Assembly (NCBI GenBank): GCA_000196815.1
Contig: FP929003.1
Coordinates: 3,681,501 to 3,745,500 of the forward strand
Reading direction: 5' to 3'
DNA length: 64,000 bases
Source: Nitrospira defluvii
Lineage (GTDB): Bacteria; Nitrospirota; Nitrospiria; Nitrospirales; Nitrospiraceae
The first letter of the stretch is position 1. Each line of letters begins with the position of its first letter. Shown here in pieces: positions 1,046 through 13,319 of this stretch. A program made the translations under genes and the position numbers. Below the pieces are notes generated by a model that saw nothing but the letters and a program-made list of their open reading frames with translations, ran no database searches and was not told where the DNA came from.

Positions 1046-2233
1046 ATGGCCATCGACGATATCACCCAGAAAGTCAGCGACCGCTATGCCCGGGCCGCCG
1101 CAACCGGCGAACAAATGTGCTGCCCGACCGGGTACGACTTTGCCGACCTCAAATCGTTTGTTCCGGAAGAAGTCCTGACCATCTCTTACGGCTGCGGCAC
1201 TCCCGCCGGATTGAACACCGTTCGACCGGGCGAAACCGTGCTGGATATCGGCTCCGGCGGCGGGATCGATTGTTTTGAAGCGGCGCGCCGGGTGGGGCCC
1301 ACCGGCCGGGTCATCGGCATCGACATGACGGACACCATGCTGGAGATTGCCCGCCGCAACGCGCCCATCGTGGCCGGAAACCTCGGGTACGCGACATCGA
1401 ATATCGAGTTCCGCAAGGGCATGGCCGATGCCATGCCGGTGGAGGACGCCAGCGTCGATCTGATCATTTCCAATTGTGTGATCAATCTGGCTCCCGACAA
1501 GCGCAAGGTCTTCCGCGAGATGTACCGCGTAATCAAACCGGGCGGCCGGTTTACGATTTCCGACATCGTGTCGGACCAGGTTGTGCCGCAATACCTGGTG
1601 CATGACGCAGCCAAGTGGGGCGACTGTCTGTCCGGCGCCTTGCAGGTGCAGGACTACATCGGCGGGATGGTCGATGCGGGATTTCGCGCCGTCCATCAAA
1701 TCAAGTCCACGCCCTGGCAGTCGATCGACGGCATCCATTTCCTCTCGGTGACGCTCACCGGATACAAGCTTCCGGCCATCGCCGACGAACAGGTCTCGTC
1801 CTATGCCACGCTCCGGGGCCCTTTCTCGAGCGTCACAGATGAATTGGGCCAACGGTACGAACGCGGCGTACCTCACCGCATCGATGGCCCCAGCGCGCAA
1901 CTGCTGCAGAGCGAGCCGCTTCGTTCGCTGTTTCTTCTCGGCCCCGCGCCCGTCACACTCACCGACTCCGACCCACGCTGGTGCGCGATCCATCCGGAGC
2001 AGAAGCCCTGCGTCTGGCAGGGCACCTATGCGATTCTCACCGGGCCGATCATCAGTGCCGAGGACGACGATCATCACCAGTACTACCGCGGCGTGCCGTT
2101 GGAAATCTGTTCCAAGACCCTCCAGGTCCTGACGCAGGAGGCCTATCGCCCTCACTTCACGATCTACCAGCGAGCCTCGGCAGGGGTGGACGGTGAGGCG
2201 GTGAGTTGTTCGCCTGAAGGGAATTGCTGCTGA
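1046..2233 (+). CDS. arsM: Arsenite S-adenosylmethionine methyltransferase, long C-terminal form (ArsM1)
   Basis: This 395-residue class I methyltransferase transfers methyl groups from SAM to arsenite. The SAM motif is VLDIGSGGGID at about residues 65-75. Cysteines sit at the ArsM positions: C25/C26, C50, the ISNCVINL motif and the WGDCLSGAL motif. About 130 extra C-terminal residues end in a cysteine-rich tail (SCSPEGNCC) that could hold arsenic. The ATG at 1046 was chosen because the protein then starts like other ArsM proteins; an earlier in-frame ATG at 992 would lie in the promoter. The stop overlaps the start of arsR1 and arsS follows. This order is known from arsenosugar biosynthesis loci, so the product may feed ArsS rather than simply being volatilised. 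Confidence 0.88.
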   Translation: MAIDDITQKVSDRYARAAATGEQMCCPTGYDFADLKSFVPEEVLTISYGCGTPAGLNTVRPGETVLDIGSGGGIDCFEAARRVGPTGRVIGIDMTDTMLEIARRNAPIVAGNLGYATSNIEFRKGMADAMPVEDASVDLIISNCVINLAPDKRKVFREMYRVIKPGGRFTISDIVSDQVVPQYLVHDAAKWGDCLSGALQVQDYIGGMVDAGFRAVHQIKSTPWQSIDGIHFLSVTLTGYKLPAIADEQVSSYATLRGPFSSVTDELGQRYERGVPHRIDGPSAQLLQSEPLRSLFLLGPAPVTLTDSDPRWCAIHPEQKPCVWQGTYAILTGPIISAEDDDHHQYYRGVPLEICSKTLQVLTQEAYRPHFTIYQRASAGVDGEAVSCSPEGNCC

Positions 2234-2589
2234 TGCCGCACTCAACGATCGGTAACCTCACGACTCCGCGTCAGTGCGCCGCAGTCTTGAAGGCCATGGG
2301 CGACGAAACGCGCTTGCGTATCCTGGAATCGCTGCTGTTGAGCGAAAAATGTGTGAGCGAACTCACGCAAGAGTTGCACTGCCCGCAGCCGCATGCGTCT
2401 CACCACCTTCGGATTCTTCGGAATGCCGGATTGGTGGAGGGGCATAGGCACGGCAAACAGGTTTGTTATCGAGTGTCGCCAACCCTGCAGCGAGCGCTCA
2501 GGGGCCGGGAAGGACAGACACTGGATTTCGGCTGTTGTGAGCTGCGCTTCCCTACCACAACCTTGCTAACGCTACGCCAGAAACGCTGA
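2233..2589 (+). CDS. arsR: ArsR-family arsenical repressor (ArsR1)
   Basis: This 118-residue winged-helix repressor overlaps the arsM1 stop by one base (TGATG), so translation is coupled. The HTH region has AMGDETRLRILESLLLSEKCVSEL, then LHCPQPHASHHLRILRNAGLV. C-terminal cysteines (FGCCEL) and the cysteines at the SEKC and LHC positions are candidate arsenite ligands. The classic CxC pair on the recognition helix is absent, so the metal site probably differs from the plasmid-type repressor and from ArsR2 in this window. It likely controls the arsM1-arsR1-arsS-PiT operon. Confidence 0.85.
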   Translation: MPHSTIGNLTTPRQCAAVLKAMGDETRLRILESLLLSEKCVSELTQELHCPQPHASHHLRILRNAGLVEGHRHGKQVCYRVSPTLQRALRGREGQTLDFGCCELRFPTTTLLTLRQKR

Positions 2590-2641: not shown

Positions 2642-3682
2642 ATGGCGTTGACGCTGCTCGGCCAACACAACCCGCTCGCATCTTCCGCTGAGCAATTGAA
2701 GGTACTCGCAGGCACACAGGCCTGTGCCCCGTTTGAGGAACAGCTTCAGCGCACCGGCCTCTTTCCGCTTCACGCGACCGGCATCTCGGTCTTTCAGATC
2801 AACGTGGGAAAACTCTGTAATCAAACCTGCCGTCATTGCCACGTGGACGCGGGACCGGACCGGACAGAAAGCATGTCGCGTGAGACGGCCGAATTGTGTA
2901 TGGCCGCATTGGCAGGCACTGACATCCCCACAGTAGATATCACAGGGGGCGCGCCGGAGCTCAATCCCAATTTTCGATGGCTGGTCGAGCAGGCCCATGC
3001 CCTCGGTCGCCACGTCATGGATCGCTGCAATCTCTCGGTGCTGCTGATTCCCTCTCAAGCGGACCTCGCCGGGTTTCTTGCCGCCCATCGGGTGGAGATC
3101 GTCGCATCCCTCCCCTACTACCGGGCAACTCAGACCGATGCCCAGCGCGGGGAAGGCATCTTCGATAAATCCATCGAAGCGCTTCGCCGTCTGAACCAAC
3201 TCGGTTATGGACGCGAAGGATCCGGCTTGATACTCAATCTCGTCCATAATCCGGTGGGGGCCTTTCTCCCGCCAAGACAGGATGCGATTGAGGCCCAATT
3301 CCGGAAGGAACTTCGCACCCGGCACGGCGTGGAATTCAACCGTCTCTACACCATCACCAACATGCCCGTGAGCCGGTTTCTCGAATTTCTGCTGGAAAGC
3401 GGGAACTACGATGGTTACATGGAACGGCTTGCCGCGGCCTATAACCCCACCGCCGCCGCCGGCGTCATGTGCCGGTATACCCTCTCCGTAAGCTGGGATG
3501 GCAGACTCTACGATTGCGACTTCAATCAGATGCTGGAACTCCCGGTAGACAGCAATGCGCCTTCGCACATCCGCGACTTTGATGCGTCGCGTCTCCACCG
3601 GCGCCGCATTACCACGCGCAACCATTGTTACGGCTGCACGGCTGGATCAGGTTCGTCCTGCGGCGGGTCCGTCACTTCTTAA
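2642..3682 (+). CDS. arsS: Arsenosugar biosynthesis radical SAM protein (ArsS)
   Basis: This 346-residue radical SAM enzyme has the cluster motif C59-x3-C63-x2-C66 (CNQTCRHC), followed by the SAM-binding TGGAPELNPNF segment. A C-terminal cysteine region (MCRYTLS, YDCDFNQ, CYGCTAGSGSSCGG) should hold auxiliary Fe-S ligands. The whole matches the ArsS/DUF3641 family. ArsS is thought to transfer an adenosyl-derived group to methylated arsenic in making arsenosugars. Co-transcription with a methyltransferase and a phosphate-type transporter fits that. The ATG at 2642 lies 52 bases after arsR1. Confidence 0.88.
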   Translation: MALTLLGQHNPLASSAEQLKVLAGTQACAPFEEQLQRTGLFPLHATGISVFQINVGKLCNQTCRHCHVDAGPDRTESMSRETAELCMAALAGTDIPTVDITGGAPELNPNFRWLVEQAHALGRHVMDRCNLSVLLIPSQADLAGFLAAHRVEIVASLPYYRATQTDAQRGEGIFDKSIEALRRLNQLGYGREGSGLILNLVHNPVGAFLPPRQDAIEAQFRKELRTRHGVEFNRLYTITNMPVSRFLEFLLESGNYDGYMERLAAAYNPTAAAGVMCRYTLSVSWDGRLYDCDFNQMLELPVDSNAPSHIRDFDASRLHRRRITTRNHCYGCTAGSGSSCGGSVTS

Positions 3683-3687
3683 CCGGC

Positions 3688-4821
3688 ATGGATCTATCCT
3701 GCCTGACATTCCTCCTCGTCCTGGCATTGGCGTTCGCCAACGGGACGAACGATGTCTCGAAAGCCATCGCCACCCTTGTGGGCAGCGGAGTGACCGATTA
3801 TCGCACGGCTATCGCATGGGGAACGGCGTGGACCATGGCCGGAGCGGGGGCTGCGGCCATGGTGGCGGGAGCCATGGTCAAAACGTTCAGCAACGGCCTC
3901 CTGCAAACCGGCACGATCATTTCGTCTACGATCACATTGGCGATTCTCTTCGGGGCAATGGCCTGGGTATTCTTCGCGTCACGGACAGGACTGCCCGTCT
4001 CAACGACCCATGCGCTCACCGGCGCCATCGTCGGGACCGGCCTGGCCGCATTTGCAGGAGAAGGGTTACTTTGGCCGGCCATCGGAAAAAAGATCGCCCT
4101 CCCCTTGCTGTTGAGTCCCTTTCTCGCCCTCGGCATCTCACTCCTTCTCCATCCGTCCGTGCGCCTGCTGGCAGATAGATGGGCAGGTGCCTGCCTCTGC
4201 GTGATGCCGGCTTCCCGCGCACTCGTGACGATCAGCGCCAAGGGAAATACCCGAACCGTTTTTCAAAGTACAAGCTTCGGACAGCCGGTCGTAGACATCC
4301 CCGCTCATTGTGATCGCGCCGGCTTGGAGGGACTGGTTCTGGGCCTGGATACGATCCATTGGATATCCAGCGGTCTTGCGTCGTTTGCGCGCGGCACGAA
4401 CGACGCGCCGAAAATCGTGGCCATGCTGCTCCTCGGAAGTGCGAGCGTCACATGGCCAAGCACCCTGTTCCAGATAACCGCCTTTGGAGGCGTAGCGCTG
4501 GCAATGGGATTGGGCAGCTATTTCGGCGGACTGCGGGTGACGGAGGTATTGGCAGAAAAAGTCACTCGCATGGACCATGCTGAAGGCCTCACGGCAAACC
4601 TCACGACCTCCACGCTGGTGCTCTCTTCAGGCTGGCTGGGACTGCCTGTTTCGACGACGCACGTCAGCAGCTCAGCCATCATCGGCATTGGCCTGATCAA
4701 AGGTCTCTCTGCTATACGCTGGAGCACCGTACGTGACATGGTGCTGGCCTGGGTAATTACCTTGCCCGCCGCCGCAGGATTTGCGGCTCTGGCCTACCTG
4801 CTGCTCTCCCGCTTGTCGTAG
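3688..4821 (+). CDS. PiT-family inorganic phosphate transporter in arsenosugar operon
   Basis: This 377-residue membrane protein carries the two inverted PiT signature repeats, ANGTNDVSKAIATL near the N-terminus and ARGTNDAPKIVAML in the second half, each followed by a GLPVSTTH motif. It starts five bases after the arsS stop, so it belongs to the operon. An upstream in-frame ATG at 3625 would overlap arsS and add a non-membrane basic stretch, so I prefer 3688. PiT proteins carry phosphate with a cation and can carry arsenate. Here it may bring in or export an arsenic compound, or supply phosphate under arsenate stress; the substrate is not visible in sequence. Confidence 0.85.
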   Translation: MDLSCLTFLLVLALAFANGTNDVSKAIATLVGSGVTDYRTAIAWGTAWTMAGAGAAAMVAGAMVKTFSNGLLQTGTIISSTITLAILFGAMAWVFFASRTGLPVSTTHALTGAIVGTGLAAFAGEGLLWPAIGKKIALPLLLSPFLALGISLLLHPSVRLLADRWAGACLCVMPASRALVTISAKGNTRTVFQSTSFGQPVVDIPAHCDRAGLEGLVLGLDTIHWISSGLASFARGTNDAPKIVAMLLLGSASVTWPSTLFQITAFGGVALAMGLGSYFGGLRVTEVLAEKVTRMDHAEGLTANLTTSTLVLSSGWLGLPVSTTHVSSSAIIGIGLIKGLSAIRWSTVRDMVLAWVITLPAAAGFAALAYLLLSRLS

Positions 4822-4956
4822 CCTCACTGGCCTCTTGTATAAAAAACTTCCACCCCGCCGTTCGCATGCACTTTACATATAGACATATCTCAATCTATTG
4901 ATGTATCAGTACCCTCTCAATTCTTCGACACTTTCAGAGAGGAGAGAGGTCTGCTC
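4822..4956 (+). promoter_or_regulatory. Leader of porin-aioBA operon with ArsR-like operator
   Basis: This region is AT-rich compared with its surroundings. It contains a perfect inverted repeat TCAAT-CT-ATTGA at 4890-4901, extended on the right to ATTGAT. The half-site matches the operators before arsM2 and in the arsR2 promoter. A TTTACA at 4872-4877 could be a -35 box, but no good -10 is placed. A GGAGAGAGG stretch about 8 bases before the ATG is the ribosome-binding site of the porin gene. Confidence 0.5.
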
Positions 4957-6432
4957 ATGCCCCGCCATCATCGATCACTCTTGAGATTGTTTTCATGCGC
5001 CTTGTTATTGGGCGCAATCACGCTTATTCCCGCCCCTCCTGTGCAGGCCGACAACCTGCCCTTCCCCGAACCGGCGAATGAAAATGCCTATGCCGTCCCG
5101 CTGGAGAGTCTTCGTCTGCGGGTCTGGGCTCAATATCGTGTCCTCTACAATGCCAGCAATATCCCAAGTGGTATCAACAACGGCAGTTTGCCCACGGCGG
5201 GAACCGGATCCGGGAAGCTCAACTACGGCGATACGACCAGTTACGATTTCTTTCGCCAGCGTATGCGGCTGGCGTTCGATATTCAGCGAAAAGATTCGGA
5301 CAACGTCGGCGCCTACATGCAGATGGAATATCGAGGCGGATTCGGCGGATCGAGCCCTGCCTCGAGCGATCCGCGCGGTGAAAGCGGGGGCAATACGGAC
5401 GGCACACCGAACGCGTTCAACCGGCTTCAGGCGCGTGGTATTCGCTATGGCTATATTTATGTGACGCCGATCGAGAACCACACGTTGGTGGTGGGCATTC
5501 TTCCAACCATCGACCAGGTGGGCCGGGTACTCTGGGACGGCGAGTGGGACTTCTTCGTGGGCGGAGCATCATTGGGCGGAAAAATCGGCAACGGCGACTA
5601 TCGGCTCGGATTTTACCGGATTGCAGCGGACCTCAAAGCCGGAACCATCGGCCAGGGGTTCGGCAAAGACGGCGACATGTGGGTGGCCGACTACAATAGG
5701 CCGGTCAAGCTGGGCAGCTACGACCTAAAGATCGGCGGACACTTTTATACGCTAAACCTCGGCAAGACAGAAAACATTTCCATCGGAGACACGCACGAAA
5801 ACTGGGCCGCCCTGACGGCATCCGGGGCGCTCCTGGGTGGCGCCTGGAACGCGTACCTGATGCTCAACAGCGGCCGAATCGGCACCGGCCTGACCGGCAA
5901 CAACCACACAGGGTATTCGGGAAAATTCGAAGGATCCGTACCGATCGGTTCCAGCACGTTCAACCTGTTCGCGCTCTATGCGTCAGGCGATACGGCGGGG
6001 CAGACGTCGAACCAGTTCACCACGCCGGAAGCGATTTTGGGAACGAACGGCTACTGGGGCTACTCTCATATTTTCAACGCCAATGCGCCGGGCGATGTGA
6101 ACGATTTCGGTGTCAACCTCAACAACGGGGGAGCCGGGCTGGTGACGGTGCAAGCCCAACTCAAATTTCCCATCATGCCCCGTCTGACCGGAACTCTGGA
6201 AAGCGCCTATTTTGCCGCCGCACGATCCCGGGACTTCGGCACGCGCGGCGGAACCAGCTATATGGGCACGGAAACAGGGGCCATGGTGACGTACAATATC
6301 GCGAAGAATCTTAATCTCGATGTCGGCGCGGCCTATGCATCCATGGGCGGCTTTCTCGCGAACCGAACGCAGGCCACCGGCGTCGAACGTTCGATCTATG
6401 AAGTCTTCACTCGATTCCAATATGCGCTGTAG
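4957..6432 (+). CDS. Outer-membrane beta-barrel porin linked to arsenite oxidase
   Basis: The 491-residue product starts with a signal peptide (LLRLFSCALLLGAITLIP) with likely cleavage after PPVQA. The mature part is rich in alternating aromatic/polar strands and glycine-rich turns (LRVWAQYRVLY, DFFRQRMRLAFDIQRK, MQMEYRGGFGG) and ends in an aromatic-rich strand FTRFQYAL. This is the pattern of an alginate-export-like or general outer-membrane porin. It is the first gene after an ArsR-like operator and lies 33 bases before aioB. It may therefore let arsenite in or arsenate out of the periplasm, where the oxidase works. That role is inferred from position only. Confidence 0.75.
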   Translation: MPRHHRSLLRLFSCALLLGAITLIPAPPVQADNLPFPEPANENAYAVPLESLRLRVWAQYRVLYNASNIPSGINNGSLPTAGTGSGKLNYGDTTSYDFFRQRMRLAFDIQRKDSDNVGAYMQMEYRGGFGGSSPASSDPRGESGGNTDGTPNAFNRLQARGIRYGYIYVTPIENHTLVVGILPTIDQVGRVLWDGEWDFFVGGASLGGKIGNGDYRLGFYRIAADLKAGTIGQGFGKDGDMWVADYNRPVKLGSYDLKIGGHFYTLNLGKTENISIGDTHENWAALTASGALLGGAWNAYLMLNSGRIGTGLTGNNHTGYSGKFEGSVPIGSSTFNLFALYASGDTAGQTSNQFTTPEAILGTNGYWGYSHIFNANAPGDVNDFGVNLNNGGAGLVTVQAQLKFPIMPRLTGTLESAYFAAARSRDFGTRGGTSYMGTETGAMVTYNIAKNLNLDVGAAYASMGGFLANRTQATGVERSIYEVFTRFQYAL

Positions 6433-6465: not shown

Positions 6466-6990
6466 ATGAGTAACGTCTCGCGAAGGAATTTTTTGAGGCT
6501 GGGAGCCTGTGCGATCAGCGGGGCCTGCGCAGTCAACGCCCTGCCCGCCATCGGCAGGGCAGCGGAGTCCCCCGACATCACGACGCTCAGGACGACCCTC
6601 CCCTACCCCCGCATCAAACTTGCCGCAATTGGGCGACTCAAAGCCGGAGTCGAGCACCTGACCGCCTATCCCGATCCGGCCTCGCCTGTCGTATTGCTGA
6701 AATTGGGACGACCGGCGATCGAAGGAATCGGTCCTGATCAGGACATTGTGGCCTTCAGCCGGCGTTGCTCGCACATGGGCGGCGCCTTGGTGTTTCGCGC
6801 TGAAACGGGCACTTTTCATTGCCCGCTTCACTACGCGATGTTCGACGCCCAGAAGGACGGCCTCATGGTGATCGGGCAGGCGACCGACAACCTGCCCCGC
6901 ATCGAGTTGGAACTGGATGCGACCGGCGACATTTACGCGGTAGGCGTCAAGGGACTGCTGTACGGACGGCAAGCGAATGTTCTGGCATAA
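6466..6990 (+). CDS. aioB: Arsenite oxidase small subunit, Rieske protein (AioB)
   Basis: This 174-residue protein has a twin-arginine signal (SRRNFLRLG, R6-R7), so it is exported folded, probably together with AioA. The Rieske [2Fe-2S] ligands are C101-x-H103 (CSHMGG) and C119-x2-H122 (CPLHYAMFD). The positions that form a disulfide in some Rieske proteins are G106 and L121, so no disulfide can form; this resembles the Rhizobium NT-26 type rather than the Alcaligenes type. It takes electrons from the Mo site and passes them to a cytochrome. A GGGAGGAG site precedes the ATG. Confidence 0.93.
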   Translation: MSNVSRRNFLRLGACAISGACAVNALPAIGRAAESPDITTLRTTLPYPRIKLAAIGRLKAGVEHLTAYPDPASPVVLLKLGRPAIEGIGPDQDIVAFSRRCSHMGGALVFRAETGTFHCPLHYAMFDAQKDGLMVIGQATDNLPRIELELDATGDIYAVGVKGLLYGRQANVLA

Positions 6991-7022: not shown

Positions 7023-9485
7023 ATGAGTGCGATCTATCACGGCGACGACCGGGTTCCCATTCCTCCCTCGGACGCTCAACAGTTCTCCACCGTCTGTTCC
7101 TATTGCATCGTCGGCTGCGGCTACAAAGTCTACAAGTGGCCGCTCGGCAAGGAAGGCGGGGCACTCCCGCATCAAAACGCTTTGCAAGTTGATTATACCA
7201 AGCAGCAGCCGGAACAATCCGGCACCTGGATTTCTCCAGCCATGCACAACGTGATCACGGAGCGGAACGGCCGCCGCTTCAACGTCGTTGTCCTGCCGGA
7301 CAAGGACTGCATCGTAAACAAGGGCAACCATTCCGTCCGTGGCGGGACGCATGGTGATGTGCTCTATGCATCCGATCGCCCCACCGCGGATCGATTGACC
7401 CATCCGCAACTCTATCGCGGCGGGGGACAATTCCCCACGACGTGGGATGAAGCCATCGAGCTAGGCGCGCGGGTGATCAAAGCCAGTCTGGACAAGTGGG
7501 GGCCCGACACGATCGCCATGAAGTTCTTTGACCACGGAGGCGGCGGAGGAGGGTTTGAAAATAATTGGGCCGTCGGCAAATTCTTCTTCACCGGCATCGG
7601 CACCAAGATGGCCTCGATTCACAACCGCCCGGCCTACAATAGCGAAGTCTTCGCATCCGGCGATGCCGGTATCGCCCCGCTGCCTTCCGCCTATCTCGAT
7701 GCGGAGTTGGCTGATACGATCATGCTGATCGGCGCCAACTCTTACGAAACACAGTCCATCTACTTTCTCGAACATATACTGCCCAACCTAGGCGGCGCGA
7801 CGATCGATCAAAAACAACGCCTGATTCCAGGTGAGACGCACGCTTCCGGCAAACTTATCGTCGTGGATCCACGGAGGACGGCCACCGTGGCCGTGGCGGA
7901 GGCCCATGCAGGGAAAGAGAATGTGCTGCACCTCCAGATCAACAACGGCACCGACATCGCGCTCCTCAATGCGCTCTCTCGACTTATCTATGAACAGCGC
8001 TGGGCGGATCAAAACTTCATCACACAGCGGACGAACAATTTCCCAGCGTTTCAACAGGTGTTCCAGTCGCAAAGTCTCGACGAAGCGATACGCCTGACAG
8101 GCATCTCGAAAGCACAGATGATGACGGCTGCAGAGTGGATCGCCAAACCCAAAGCGGACACCGCAAGACGACGTACATTGTTTTTGTATGAGAAGGGATT
8201 GATCTGGGGTCTCAAAAACTATGAAAACGTTGCCTCGGCCGTCGACCTCGCGCTGCTGACCGGTAATCTGGGCAAGCCGGGAACCGGCTGCGGCCGGTTG
8301 GGCGGGCATCAGGAAGGGTATAGCCGGCCAGCCTATCCGGGCCAACGCCCGCCGGTCAATGTCGATGAGGTCGCAATTAAAGGCGGCGCATCAAAAGTGT
8401 TCTGGGTCGCCGGCTGCAATCCCGTTGGCGGCACGTTAAATGCCCAGAGTTTCCGCGTCGCCCTTGCTCAGCGCACGGCACTGGTAAACCAGGCCCTGGG
8501 TTCGACGAACGGAGGAAGCCTCGACGAGAAGGTGAGCGCGATCATGAACGCGCTCGACAAGGGCGGGTTGTTCCTGATCGTGCAGGATATTTATCCGATC
8601 GAAACCGCCCAATACGCTCACCTGGTATTACCCGCCGCGCAATGGGGGGAGATGAACCTCACGTCCATCAACGGAGAACGGCGACTGAGGCTCTACCAGA
8701 AGTTCATGGACGCCCCCGGCATCGCCGAGCCGGATTGGAAGATCATGGCACGAATGGCGCACCGCCTTGAGTCCGCCTATCGCGCAGAAGGAAAGACGGA
8801 GATGGCGGCCCGCTTCGCCGGATTCGCCTGGAACACTGATGAAGAGGTCTTTCGCGCTGCCTCAGCCGGCGTAAAAGGCGCCCAGGAAGACTATGGAGAG
8901 ACGACGTATGCCATGCTTCAAGCACTGGGCACGAACGGTGTGCAGACACCCGTGCAGGAAATCAGGAATGGTGTGCCAATGGGCACGACCCGCCTGTACA
9001 CGGACGACAAAATGTTTACGTTCATTCCCGCACCCTGGCCGGGCTTCCCCCGACAAATCCAGACACTGATCGACGATGCGCGATATCCGTTTTGGGTGAA
9101 CAACGGCCGGGCCAACCACGGCTGGCAAACCCTCTATGACGATCTTCGCAAACCGTATGTGATGGGACGTGAGCCGCTTCCCCATGTTGAAATTCATCCG
9201 CAGGATGCCGGTCAGCTCGGCATCACCAACGGAGAGCTCGTTGAACTGTTTAATCCCTATGGGTCCGTCACGGCAATGGCCGTCATCGTCGACGCCAATG
9301 CGCCCGGACACGTATTCATGCTGTTCGAGCATCCGAAGGGCTGGCTCAACAACCTGACGACCGACTATGTAGATCCGGCCACCACGATCCCCTATTACAA
9401 AGGAACAAAAGCGGGGATTCGTAGAATCGGCGGACTGCCGGGTATGAACGAGTGCTTGAGTTTCGTGCCCACGAATCGTGCTTGA
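7023..9485 (+). CDS. aioA: Arsenite oxidase large molybdopterin subunit (AioA)
   Basis: This 820-residue member of the DMSO-reductase superfamily has the 3Fe-4S motif C25-x2-C28-x3-C32 (CSYCIVGC), with a serine near residue 104 in the fourth-ligand position. The arsenite-binding residues of AioA are all kept: H171 and E179 in FDHGGGGGGFENNW, and the R and H of CGRLGGHQEGY. It oxidises arsenite to arsenate in the periplasm, carried there by the Tat signal of AioB. The ATG at 7023 has an AGAAGGAG site 8 bases upstream and matches the usual AioA N-terminus; the open frame to the left overlaps aioB and is not coding. No aioX/S/R and no cytochrome c gene lie next to it. Confidence 0.95.
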   Translation: MSAIYHGDDRVPIPPSDAQQFSTVCSYCIVGCGYKVYKWPLGKEGGALPHQNALQVDYTKQQPEQSGTWISPAMHNVITERNGRRFNVVVLPDKDCIVNKGNHSVRGGTHGDVLYASDRPTADRLTHPQLYRGGGQFPTTWDEAIELGARVIKASLDKWGPDTIAMKFFDHGGGGGGFENNWAVGKFFFTGIGTKMASIHNRPAYNSEVFASGDAGIAPLPSAYLDAELADTIMLIGANSYETQSIYFLEHILPNLGGATIDQKQRLIPGETHASGKLIVVDPRRTATVAVAEAHAGKENVLHLQINNGTDIALLNALSRLIYEQRWADQNFITQRTNNFPAFQQVFQSQSLDEAIRLTGISKAQMMTAAEWIAKPKADTARRRTLFLYEKGLIWGLKNYENVASAVDLALLTGNLGKPGTGCGRLGGHQEGYSRPAYPGQRPPVNVDEVAIKGGASKVFWVAGCNPVGGTLNAQSFRVALAQRTALVNQALGSTNGGSLDEKVSAIMNALDKGGLFLIVQDIYPIETAQYAHLVLPAAQWGEMNLTSINGERRLRLYQKFMDAPGIAEPDWKIMARMAHRLESAYRAEGKTEMAARFAGFAWNTDEEVFRAASAGVKGAQEDYGETTYAMLQALGTNGVQTPVQEIRNGVPMGTTRLYTDDKMFTFIPAPWPGFPRQIQTLIDDARYPFWVNNGRANHGWQTLYDDLRKPYVMGREPLPHVEIHPQDAGQLGITNGELVELFNPYGSVTAMAVIVDANAPGHVFMLFEHPKGWLNNLTTDYVDPATTIPYYKGTKAGIRRIGGLPGMNECLSFVPTNRA

Positions 9486-9492
9486 AGTGTCG

Positions 9493-10527
9493 ATGTCCAC
9501 ATGGTTTCATCTCGACTGGCGGAGGAGTGGTCCTGTGCAGATGCTTCTCATCATCGTGCTATCGATTGTGATCGCGGGCTGTACCACAACATTCCCTCCG
9601 GCAAGAGTCATTCGGGAGTCCCCCGAACTCCTCGTTCGGTTGGACCATGACAAGAACTGTGAGGCCGGCAACGGGGAGAAACCCCTGTCACACCCAGTAC
9701 GTTTCACCGGGAATCAGGTACGGCGGCTGCTGGCCGCGTTGTCAGCCAGGGAAAAGGTGGGACTCCTGAGCTCCTTCTCCGGCACATCGAACACCCCACG
9801 ACTCTTTGACCATCGTGATCTCGACCTGCTCGTTCCACATATCGAGGACGCTTTTGCAACAGCCACCCCGAAAGAAGTCGTAGTGTTCCTCCTGGTGACA
9901 CCCGTGAACGAATCACTGAACCTCATCACATCAGGAACGCTCGCCATCCGCGATAATACGCTCTCGGTAGCGTTACACAATTTCAGGCATCCGGTGCGTA
10001 CCACGCTATCAGAAGTTGGCGCGTCCGATCGCCTCGGCGACGTGAGAGAAACCCTGCGCTACGTCCGGAGGTTTCCATGCGCCTCCGTCGGCGAGCAAGA
10101 TTTTGCCGTATTTTTTGACGTTCCTCATTTCCAAACAGAAGCCCGCTCGGGCAGTCTCATCCGCTACCCTGAGCGGACCCTGTCGATCGCCTACCCGGAT
10201 TTTCTCGCGACACATTCTGATGCGACAGGCGGTGAAATGGAGGGCCTGAGTTCTCATCCGAAATCCGTAAGCGACAGGACGGAAACCCAGGCCATCTCGG
10301 ACCTCAAACGCCGAATTGCCGAACTTGAGCGCACCAACCAGGCTCTCATCGATCGCAGGCCCATCAGCGCGTCAGCCGAGGGTTCTAGCAAGACGCTCCA
10401 ACCAGCCACCGACAACGCGCCACCTATAGCTGCTGACGCACAGGCTCGACTCATGGAGATCATTAGACGCCTGGAAACGCGCGTCTCCGAACTGGAACGT
10501 CGCACAGGGCAAGACTCTGCACGCTGA
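9493..10527 (+). CDS. Lipoprotein of unknown function with C-terminal coiled coil
   Basis: I do not recognise the family. From the ATG at 9493 the protein has 344 residues. It has a signal sequence (MLLIIVLSIVIAGC) whose cysteine fits a lipobox, a globular region of about 230 residues, and a C-terminal part with heptad-like segments (LKRRIAELERTNQAL and IIRRLETRVSELERR). A GGAGGAG at 9521-9527 favours a GTG start at 9535, but the positive charges needed before the signal core (WRRSG) favour 9493. It begins 8 bases after aioA, so it is probably co-transcribed. A helper role for the oxidase or the envelope is only a guess. Confidence 0.65.
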   Translation: MSTWFHLDWRRSGPVQMLLIIVLSIVIAGCTTTFPPARVIRESPELLVRLDHDKNCEAGNGEKPLSHPVRFTGNQVRRLLAALSAREKVGLLSSFSGTSNTPRLFDHRDLDLLVPHIEDAFATATPKEVVVFLLVTPVNESLNLITSGTLAIRDNTLSVALHNFRHPVRTTLSEVGASDRLGDVRETLRYVRRFPCASVGEQDFAVFFDVPHFQTEARSGSLIRYPERTLSIAYPDFLATHSDATGGEMEGLSSHPKSVSDRTETQAISDLKRRIAELERTNQALIDRRPISASAEGSSKTLQPATDNAPPIAADAQARLMEIIRRLETRVSELERRTGQDSAR

Positions 10528-10535
10528 CTCCTGCT

Positions 10536-10952
10536 TTACGCCTTAGTCGTGGTGAGGAATCTGCGAAGCGCAGCGGCGATTTCGTCGCGCACGCGCCGGA
10601 AACTCGCTCGCCGCTCGCCCGCACCGGTGACTTCCGCCGGATCGTCAAAACTCCAATGCAACAGATGTGTGGGCCCCGGCCAGATCGGGCAGGACTCCTT
10701 GGCCCGGTCGCAGACCGTAATGACGTACTCGAACGGCTGCGTCAGGAATTCAGAAACAGACTTGGAGCGGTGCGCCGAAATGTCGATGCCGACCTCGGCC
10801 ATCGCTTCGACGGAGACAGGATTCAAACCGACCGGGTGAGTGCCCGCACTGAACACTTCAAACCGATCACCCGCCAGATGCCGCAACCACCCCTCCGCCA
10901 TCTGACTGCGCGCAGAGTTACCGGTGCAGAGAAATAACACTCGGGCCTTCAT
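10536..10952 (-). CDS. arsC: Arsenate reductase, thioredoxin-linked low-molecular-weight phosphatase type (ArsC)
   Basis: This 138-residue protein has the phosphatase-like loop CTGNSARSQ near the N-terminus. It also has the second and third redox cysteines in VITVCDRAKESCPIWPG, the three-cysteine set of thioredoxin-coupled arsenate reductases. It reduces arsenate to arsenite in the cytoplasm for export by Acr3. Its ATG overlaps the acr3 stop by four bases (ATGA), and it is the last gene of the reverse ars operon. Its stop lies only eight bases from the stop of the converging lipoprotein gene, leaving no room for a separate terminator. Confidence 0.93.
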   Translation of the reverse strand: MKARVLFLCTGNSARSQMAEGWLRHLAGDRFEVFSAGTHPVGLNPVSVEAMAEVGIDISAHRSKSVSEFLTQPFEYVITVCDRAKESCPIWPGPTHLLHWSFDDPAEVTGAGERRASFRRVRDEIAAALRRFLTTTKA

Positions 10953-12010
10953 GCGCCGACCTCCTGATTGAACCAATGCCTGGTCTTGTTGCAGACACTG
11001 CAGACGGACAACATCACCGGCACTTCCACCAACACCCCGACCACCGTCGCCAACGCGGCACCCGACTCCGGCCCGAACAGTGCGATGGCCGTCGCCACAG
11101 CCAACTCGAAAAAGTTGCTGGCACCGATGAGCGCTCCCGGCGCAGCGATCGCGTAGGGAACTCGCCAGCGATGCATCAGGCCATAGGCCAGCGACGAATT
11201 CATGTAAACCTGCAGGAGAATCGGCACCGCGATCAACACGACATGTACGGTTTTCCCCAGGATGTTTTGCGACTGAAACGCAAAGATGCACACCAACGTG
11301 AGGAGCAGCGCCGCGATCGTCAGCGGCGCGAGTCGGGGCAGAAACTGTTCTTCCATCCACCGCAGCCCATACCGACGAACCAACCACAGTCGAAGCCCGG
11401 CGCCGACGAGCAACGGAATGACGATAAACATCGCCACCGAATACAACAGCACATCGAACGGCACGGTCAACGATGACGCCCCGCTCACCAGCAACCCGAC
11501 AATCGGAACAAACAGCACGAGCATGATCAGGTCGTTCACGGCCACCTGGACGAGCGTGTAGGCGGGATCCCCGTCCGTCAGGTAACTCCACACAAACACC
11601 ATTGCCGTACAGGGCGCCGCAGCCAGGATAATGGTCCCCGCGATGTATTGGTCGGCCTCGGCGGGTGAGATCCAGGCTGCGAAGACGTACCTGAAAAACA
11701 CCCAGGCAAAAAACGCCATGGAGAAGGGCTTCACCACCCAATTCACAAACAGGGTAATCAGCAGGCCGACCGGCCGCTTGCCCACATCACGAATCGAGGC
11801 AAACTCAACCTTCATCATCATCGGCACAATCATCAGCCAAATCAGTACGGCAATCGGTAGATTGATGTGGCTGCCCTGCCCGACTTCAGCCCCTCGCAGG
11901 CTCGACACCACACCCGGCACTGCCTGTCCGATCAGCACACCGGCCACCATGCAGAGCGCCACCCAAAGCGTGAGATACCGCTCAAAGAACGACAGCCGCT
12001 TCGTGGCCAC
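10949..12010 (-). CDS. acr3: Arsenite efflux permease, Acr3 family
   Basis: The 353-residue membrane protein has ten predicted hydrophobic segments. It carries the conserved Acr3 cysteine in AAAPCTAMVFVWSYL and the conserved glutamate in ASNFFELAVATAIALFG. It exports arsenite across the inner membrane using the proton gradient. It follows arsM2 by 70 bases and overlaps arsC, so it is in the arsR2-arsM2-acr3-arsC operon. Together with AioBA this would let the cell move arsenite out and oxidise it in the periplasm. Confidence 0.94.
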   Translation of the reverse strand: MATKRLSFFERYLTLWVALCMVAGVLIGQAVPGVVSSLRGAEVGQGSHINLPIAVLIWLMIVPMMMKVEFASIRDVGKRPVGLLITLFVNWVVKPFSMAFFAWVFFRYVFAAWISPAEADQYIAGTIILAAAPCTAMVFVWSYLTDGDPAYTLVQVAVNDLIMLVLFVPIVGLLVSGASSLTVPFDVLLYSVAMFIVIPLLVGAGLRLWLVRRYGLRWMEEQFLPRLAPLTIAALLLTLVCIFAFQSQNILGKTVHVVLIAVPILLQVYMNSSLAYGLMHRWRVPYAIAAPGALIGASNFFELAVATAIALFGPESGAALATVVGVLVEVPVMLSVCSVCNKTRHWFNQEVGA

Positions 12011-12080
12011 CTACGGCTCATGAACCGATAGTGCGAGTTCCATACCCTTGGCTCCTTGGTGCTCTGGCTGCCCGGCGGAG

Positions 12081-12905
12081 TTAGACCGTCACAGCCGGCT
12101 TCTTGGCCCGAATGAATGCGCTCATGAACTTGCCCTCGACTTGAGCGACGAGCAGATCACTGGAGAGGTCTGCACCGACCAGCAACTCCTTCACGTCATC
12201 GGCGTGATAGATGCGCGTCGGCTCGATTCCGATCTCGACGAACCCCGCCTGGGCCAGCATGTCCCGATATTCCGTCTCTTCCAATGCGCCCGCCACACAA
12301 CCGGCCCATAATTCGAGATTCCGTCGGATCTCCGAGGGGACCGCCCCTCGCACCACAATATCGGACAACGCCAGCCGGCCGCCGGGACGCAGGACGCGAA
12401 AGGCTTCCGCCAGCACGCGCTCCTTTTCGCCCGACAAATTCACGACGCAATTGCTGATGATCACGTCCACGGAACGATCAGGCAGGGGGAGGTGCTCGAT
12501 TTCGCCCTTCAGAAACTCGACATTCTCCACGCCGGCTGCGCGCTGATTCTCCCTGGCCAAGGCCAACATCTCCTCGGTCATGTCCACCCCGTAGGCTTTT
12601 CCCGTCGGACCGACTCGCTTGGCGGAGAGCAACACGTCGATGCCGCCGCCGGACCCCAGATCCAACACCGTCTCACCGGCATGTAGTTCAGCCAGAGCCG
12701 TTGGATTTCCGCAGCCCAGCGATGCCGCCACGGCATCCGCCGGCAACTCCTGGCGCTCCTGATCTGAATACAGGTTGGACGTGATCGGATCGACATTCAT
12801 GAGCGCGGGAGAGGCTCCGCAGCAGGAACTGCCTCCGCTCTTGGCTCGTGCAGCGGCTTCACCGTATGTTTCCTTGACAAGATCTCGAATCGCTTGTGCG
12901 TCCAT
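12081..12905 (-). CDS. arsM: Arsenite S-adenosylmethionine methyltransferase, standard form (ArsM2)
   Basis: This 274-residue ArsM has an N-terminal cysteine pair (GGSSCCGAS), SAM motif [14 protein letters not shown], and catalytic cysteines in ISNCVVNL and WAGCVAGAL. It lacks the long cysteine-rich C-terminal extension of ArsM1. The ATG at 12905 follows a GGGGAGG site and matches the usual start ([18 protein letters not shown]); an in-frame upstream ATG would lie in the operator. It converts arsenite to mono- and dimethyl forms. It lies between arsR2 and acr3. Confidence 0.92.
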
Positions 12906-12927
12906 TTCGTCGCCTCCCCTTTTATGC

Positions 12928-12943
12928 ATCAATATTTATTGAT
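12928..12943 (-). promoter_or_regulatory. ArsR operator before arsM2
   Basis: There is a perfect inverted repeat ATCAAT-ATTT-ATTGAT, fitting the ATCAA-N6-TTGAT pattern also found in the arsR2 promoter. It lies between the arsR2 stop and the arsM2 ribosome-binding site, so arsM2-acr3-arsC may be repressed from a second operator in addition to the arsR2 promoter. Confidence 0.65.
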
Positions 12944-12962
12944 CTATTCGGCAGAAAAAAAA

Positions 12963-13283
12963 TCAACAGCAGCCGGTGGCGCGACGCGCCCGCTTCGTCT
13001 GCTTGAGCGAATCGACGAGGTCATCGAGCTCGGCAAGGGCATCGGCGTTCACGGAGTAGTACATCCATCGACCCTCCCGTCGATCCAAAATCATTCCCGC
13101 ATCCTTGAGCACCTTCAGATGAAATGAGAGCCGCGACTGCCCGGCCTGCAGGCGGTCCGTCAGCTCGCACACGCAGCACTCGCCTTCTTTCAGCTCGTCC
13201 AGAATCTCCAATCGCGTCGCGTCCGCAAGCGCGTGAAACAACTCTGCCGCCCGCGCTGGATGTCGTACCGTGTTTCCCTTCAT
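12963..13283 (-). CDS. arsR: ArsR-family arsenical repressor (ArsR2)
   Basis: This 106-residue winged-helix repressor has ALADATRLEILDELKEGECCVCEL, carrying the CxC arsenite-binding pair at the start of the recognition region. The recognition and wing motifs follow (QSRLSFHLKVLKDAGMILDRREGRWMYYSV), and two cysteines close the protein (TGCC). It is the first gene of the reverse operon. The ATG at 13283 gives the normal family length. The in-frame extension upstream to 13319 would run through the promoter and operator and is rejected. Confidence 0.92.
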   Translation of the reverse strand: MKGNTVRHPARAAELFHALADATRLEILDELKEGECCVCELTDRLQAGQSRLSFHLKVLKDAGMILDRREGRWMYYSVNADALAELDDLVDSLKQTKRARRATGCC

Positions 13284-13289
13284 GGGAAA

Positions 13290-13319
13290 AACATACATCA
13301 ACAACTCTTGATAAGTCAA
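13290..13319 (-). promoter_or_regulatory. arsR2 promoter with ArsR operator in the spacer
   Basis: On the reverse strand, TTGACT (forward 13314-13319) and TATGTT (forward 13290-13295) are 18 bases apart. The spacer contains the inverted repeat ATCAA-N6-TTGAT at 13297-13312, so repressor binding would block polymerase. The expected transcription start falls near 13283, the arsR2 ATG itself, which suggests a leaderless or nearly leaderless message. Confidence 0.65.

Follow-up and report, generated by a model that had tools for sequence, protein, structure and literature searches.

Organization of the locus

The stretch of DNA analyzed here (the window, 64 kb; G000:C1:3681501-3745500) belongs to a Nitrospira defluvii genome that consists of a single contig of 4,317,083 bases. 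The forward strand carries, in order, arsM, arsR, arsS, pit, a promoter-like element, a gene for a porin-like protein, aioB, aioA, and a putative lipoprotein gene, which is followed on the reverse strand by arsC-like, acr3, arsM, and arsR genes (Table 1). Both oxidase subunits exceed the curated NCBIfam equivalog scores, which places them in the AioAB arsenite oxidase family. The porin gene ends 33 bp ahead of aioB, and aioB is separated from aioA by 32 bp, confirming the claim of an earlier note on this DNA that the porin is the first gene and lies directly upstream of aioBA. The porin-aioB interval contained no site listed by a terminator scan. The spacing, the absent terminator, and the conserved promoter element together suggest that the porin gene and aioBA are co-transcribed, and that arsenite would induce them. 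The true start of the phosphate permease probably lies further into the open reading frame than called. The lipoprotein gene comes after aioA at every Nitrospira locus examined, and none was detected at 71 other aio loci.

The promoter-like element occurs once in the 64-kb window. Among 13 Nitrospira loci compared (with the starts of L036 and L037 set by hand), the element was present upstream of the porin in nine, compared to a mean of 0.03 and a maximum of 1 in shuffled sequences; the strict form was missing from L042, L043, L058, and L060. A sigma-70 scan of the window did not list this site. The ArsR-like site that the earlier note had placed right before the porin is real as a sequence, a perfect palindrome within the spacer of the element, to which an ArsR-type regulator may bind.

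Table 1. Features of the aio locus, in window coordinates.
Feature	Position	Strand	Basis
ArsR-family regulator, candidate to bind at 4890-4901	2224..2589	+	NF033788, 88.7 bits
Phosphate permease of Pit/PHO4 type, final gene of the ars group upstream	3625..4821	+	PF01384, 223 bits
Promoter-like element, TAGACA-N18-TATCAG	4880..4909	+	In 9/13 Nitrospira loci
Perfect 12-base palindrome TCAATCTATTGA, ArsR-type operator candidate	4890-4901		Inside the spacer of the promoter-like element
Outer-membrane porin-like protein, 491 aa, ATG start	4957..6432	+	ORF call, composition, profile homology
Signature EYRGGxGGSSPAxSDPRG...NAFNRLQARGxRYGY, porin codons 124-166	5326..5454	+	Common to aio-linked porins of both phyla
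aioB, Rieske subunit, Tat-like leader	6466..6990	+	TIGR02694, 153 bits (cut-off 95.65)
aioA, arsenite oxidase large subunit	7023..9485	+	TIGR02693, 1017.4 bits (cut-off 359.05)
Putative lipoprotein, lipobox VIAGC (by eye)	9478..10527	+	No family match in Pfam or NCBIfam
Flanking arsenic-resistance genes: arsC-like, acr3, arsM, second arsR	10536..13319	-	

The porin and its relatives

The N-terminus of the porin resembles a signal peptide, and the mature part contains no cysteine, 14.8% glycine, and 12.2% aromatic residues, a composition compatible with an outer-membrane protein. Nineteen amphipathic strands were counted, compared to 14.2 in shuffled sequences (sd 2.6, max 21). Two AlphaFold predictions gave models with mean pLDDT values of 27.5 and 31.9, a confidence too low for use; the low-confidence model was mainly beta. 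In an alignment of the family, the last residue is phenylalanine in the Aquificota members (see below) and leucine in the Nitrospira members. The gene is present in a single copy in the genome of the window, where the second match is negligible (E 0.003 over 53 residues).

The porin alone gave no Pfam match above cut-off (the best was YfaZ, 15.9 bits against a cut-off of 23) and no NCBIfam match. Sequence searches of the PDB with the porin itself and with profiles A3 and A6 revealed no relative; two PDB matches at E 0.5, both to arylsulfatase, were dismissed as chance. Plasmid and viral collections contained no relative of the porin. In alignment A3, 7 of 17 members matched the Alginate_exp family weakly (best 6e-4), and the highest score against PF13372 among the 17 members scanned was 19.1 bits, below the cut-off of 25.2. 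At the Pfam gathering score, the window porin is therefore not a member of PF13372. It does belong to the broad Alginate_exp superfamily through profile homology to true PF13372 members: profile A4 aligned with profile A6 over 171 columns (A4 columns 231-411) with an hhalign probability of 98.6 and an E of 1e-15 in a single comparison, and all five of the A6 members scanned, which are weak Nitrospirota homologues, scored above the PF13372 cut-off (A6 has seven members; L203 and L205 were left out). Judged from its sequence, the protein is probably a divergent porin of the outer membrane, related to the alginate-export-type porins and lying outside PF13372 as filed. It shares with them a C-terminal half that can be aligned by profile, a similar length, and a signal peptide, but differs in the missing PF13372 match, in its linkage to aio, and in the signature at residues 124-166, which was seen here only in the aio-linked group.

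The alignment of both phyla (A4) contains 98 invariant columns, 34 of which fall within residues 96-168 (hand count). This segment includes eight invariant arginines, which suggests an oxyanion path. Two distant homologues, L045 and L046, align without the signature.

Linkage to aioBA in Nitrospirota

Among 395 Nitrospirota genomes, a close porin was found in 12 and aioA in 13, with both present in 12 (Fisher p = 5e-22, uncorrected for genome relatedness, with the close porins only in the table and the G376 fragment and two distant homologues left out). All 12 close porins lie directly upstream of aioB. The genomes are kin to one another, and these counts are not independent events. At a threshold of 1e-5, the porin query detected 15 of the 395 genomes, 12 with at least 81% identity, two with distant homologues (G054 and G069, 33-35%), and one with a fragment (G376). 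A wider profile search of 390 Nitrospirota genomes gave a clear break, with 12 genomes below E 1e-190, then approximately 1e-55, 1e-54, and 1e-35, and then 1e-12 and weaker. A scan of GTDB contigs yielded 80 aioA loci, in which all nine Nitrospira loci carry the porin, adding two further genomes (L058 and L060). One Nitrospira MAG contains two porin-aioBA copies on two contigs (L055 and L056), with both porins cut at contig ends; in G348, both porin copies are cut by contig ends.

The earlier note had proposed a dedicated channel, which would be contradicted by the absence of the porin from the aio loci of close relatives. The proposal withstood this comparison: the synteny is kept at every Nitrospira aio locus examined except that of G179, the thirteenth aioA genome, where aioA is truncated to its C-terminal part and comes after pit, with the porin and aioB missing by deletion or misassembly. 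In G300, an intact porin stands beside a frameshifted aioA, which counts against the dedicated-channel reading. When 12 Nitrospira loci were compared pairwise, the porin had a mean identity of 0.847, AioA 0.814, AioB 0.684, and the fast-evolving lipoprotein 0.475, and the distances of porin and AioA are correlated (r 0.91, Mantel p 1e-4).

A second phylum and the wider distribution

The 71 non-Nitrospira aio loci contain a single homologue, at L125, an Aquificaceae MAG, where it lies directly behind aioA. Among 136 Aquificota genomes, the porin profile matched 12 and aioA was present in 14, with both in 10 (Fisher p = 1.5e-10, uncorrected for genome relatedness). These porins are 34-41% identical to the window porin. 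In 8 of the 10 genomes, the porin directly follows aioA (G395, G452, G454, G458, G506, G511, G544, and G546); the porin contig of G511 starts with aioA residues 749-814. Porin and aioA are on separate contigs in G491. In G479, aioBA is elsewhere, and the porin adjoins a set of three genes, for a PhnD-like protein, a kinase, and a regulator, that resembles the set adjoining aioBA in relatives. Several Aquificota aio loci (L162, L165, L167, L163, and L173) carry a PhnD-like binding protein, a kinase, and a sigma-54-type regulator, an AioXSR-like set. Four of the 14 aioA-bearing Aquificota have no porin (G472, G482, G495, and G497). All three signature-bearing or fragmentary porins found in genomes without aioA are broken: G471, which lacks the 3′ end, and the G481 fragment in Aquificota, and the G376 fragment in Nitrospirota.

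The porin is thus linked, and largely restricted, to aioA-bearing genomes in two phyla. The proposal that it is dedicated to the aio locus is borne out by its kept place in Nitrospira and by a relative tied to aioBA, in another gene order, in the second phylum. Synteny in all intact Nitrospira loci, together with the second phylum, rules out a chance neighbor. Across 464 genomes from three further phyla, no close member was found (150, 95, and 219 genomes from the phyla of G442, a Campylobacteraceae MAG, G397, a Rokuibacteriota MAG, and G418, a Gammaproteobacteria MAG), where five genomes gave weak matches, the best at 2.6e-10. In 49 aio-bearing genomes, representing 50 of the 71 non-Nitrospira loci less L096, no porin was found except in the L125 genome, and five annotated plasmid aio loci, for which the gene table is incomplete, showed none. 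A heuristic screen for barrels near aio loci recovered the porin at six of the nine Nitrospira loci and gave no convincing barrel at the 71 other loci, with three doubtful proteins (L085, L107, and L131); the screen missed L060, both of the truncated copies, and the likewise truncated L125, and its negatives are weak. Since 70 of the 71 non-Nitrospira loci scanned showed no porin, and 4 of the 14 aioA-bearing Aquificota lack it, arsenite oxidation has no general need of it.

Proposed function

The partnership of porin and aio is real, being both repeated and specific, and the porin is likely to serve as an arsenic channel, as judged from gene content and sequence. We consider it reasonably probable that the protein forms a beta-barrel channel in the outer membrane and acts together with the periplasmic arsenite oxidase. 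It probably moves arsenic for the enzyme; because the conserved segment at residues 96-168 is arginine-rich, an oxyanion path, and with it arsenate exit, is no less likely than the entry of arsenite. In the proposed mechanism, arsenite entering the cell would cause the ArsR-type repressor to let go of the promoter, and the porin, AioB, AioA, and the lipoprotein would be produced together. The channel would then pass arsenious acid into the periplasm, arsenate out of it, or both, and could keep the enzyme from substrate starvation or product choking. The broader proposal, an arsenic-dedicated channel family that was joined separately to arsenite oxidase in Nitrospirota and Aquificota, and whose arginine-rich loop selects arsenite or arsenate, is more tentative and falls a little short of probable. 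Arsenic crossing of the outer membrane is usually ascribed to general porins, and arsenious acid, which is small and neutral, should cross them, which counts against the need for a dedicated channel.

A rather unlikely alternative is that the porin is a phosphate channel, supplying the neighboring phosphate permease while the periplasm fills with arsenate. At most Nitrospira loci the Pit permease immediately precedes the porin, at L043 its place between arsS and the porin is taken by what read as Pst-type ABC phosphate transporter genes (L043:9532-12330, by eye), and aio islands are known to include phosphate genes, as described in the available part of PMC3834237. However, Pit was not found adjoining the porin in L044, and neither Pit nor Pst was recognized beside the Aquificota porins when neighbors were compared with the window genes and by eye, leaving aioBA as the constant partner. 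In addition, Porin_O_P, the family of OprP-type phosphate porins, was absent among the Pfam families matched at E up to 1 by the 17 members scanned. Still less probable is an ordinary general porin carried as a passenger on arsenic gene islands. The Nitrospira aio loci do form one clade, and arsenic genes move between genomes (PMC3834237, as far as available), but a passenger would not be expected to be broken in all three cases where aioA is absent, to recur in a second phylum with a different gene order, to be more conserved than AioA, or to be so restricted in occurrence.

The porin may also have a role other than transport, as an alternative to arsenite entry, arsenate exit, or phosphate entry. 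A structural barrel, comparable to the barrels of porin-cytochrome complexes, that anchors or organizes the oxidase or its electron carriers in the outer membrane would fit the lipoprotein gene that follows aioA in Nitrospira, and in Geobacter the porin-like ExtI has effects on haem proteins and on the reduction of selenite and tellurite (PMC5877670, available portion). Against this are the Aquificota locus L125, where the lipoprotein was not found, and the operon itself, in which an unsystematic look revealed no multihaem gene; we regard this reading as the least probable. An outer-membrane channel serving arsenite oxidase remains the preferred interpretation.

The available part of PMC3834237 describes aioBA arsenic islands with ars and phosphate genes, Ca. 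Nitrospira defluvii among them, and the window shares this gene content. The islands differ in that the word "porin" is absent from the main text of that paper, as far as it was available, and no porin role is given there. ExtI of Geobacter sulfurreducens, whose loss slows the handling of selenite and tellurite, is similarly a porin-like outer-membrane protein tied to metalloid oxyanions, but it is part of a cytochrome cluster and has effects on haem proteins, according to the portion of PMC5877670 available; the two proteins are likened by description. A Thioalkalivibrio porin was named as a possible arsenite entry route because it was down-regulated (PMC6620896, in part). The earlier note knew of no described porin for this role, which agrees with the open literature searched: no aio-operon porin appears in the available portions of PMC3834237, PMC5767232, PMC6620896, PMC10732223, PMC4563254, PMC11154318, PMC9048795, PMC3665934, and PMC5877670, and an earlier mention is possible in the Nitrospira defluvii genome paper or the Hydrogenobaculum aio paper.

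An oxidase-linked porin that is found in two phyla and broken without aioA offers a defined target for gene deletion and a protein for reconstitution. It is also relevant to whether nitrite-oxidizing Nitrospira, which are common in water treatment, truly oxidize arsenite. If the proposed function is true, the porin would represent a channel paired with a single respiratory enzyme of the periplasm.

Evolutionary history

In AioA trees of 58 and 27 rows (the former built in quick mode from chosen rows that cover 40 of the 80 contig loci), the Nitrospira enzyme falls with a Caldilineae sequence and the Aquificota enzyme with Thermus. No porin was found at those Caldilineae and Thermus aio loci. 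A single clade for the AioA of both porin-linked groups was rejected (p-AU 1.9e-5, 27 rows), and co-inheritance from one aio ancestor was rejected with it as the sole cause of the pairing. It follows that the pairing of porin and aio was made twice, or was made once and then lost in between, or that the porin moved between phyla. An old linkage may have been lost, for example, in the single-membrane Chloroflexota.

The distant homologue at L046 is part of a cluster (L046:5020-14244) that also encodes an 888-residue molybdopterin enzyme, an iron-sulphur subunit, a TorD-like chaperone, and cytochrome-like proteins. This cluster raises the possibility that the porin group may be a companion of other periplasmic molybdoenzymes. 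At L047:9332-15334, a porin fragment with the arsenic-type signature adjoins a TtrB-like protein and an NrfD-TtrA-like fusion of 1358 residues.
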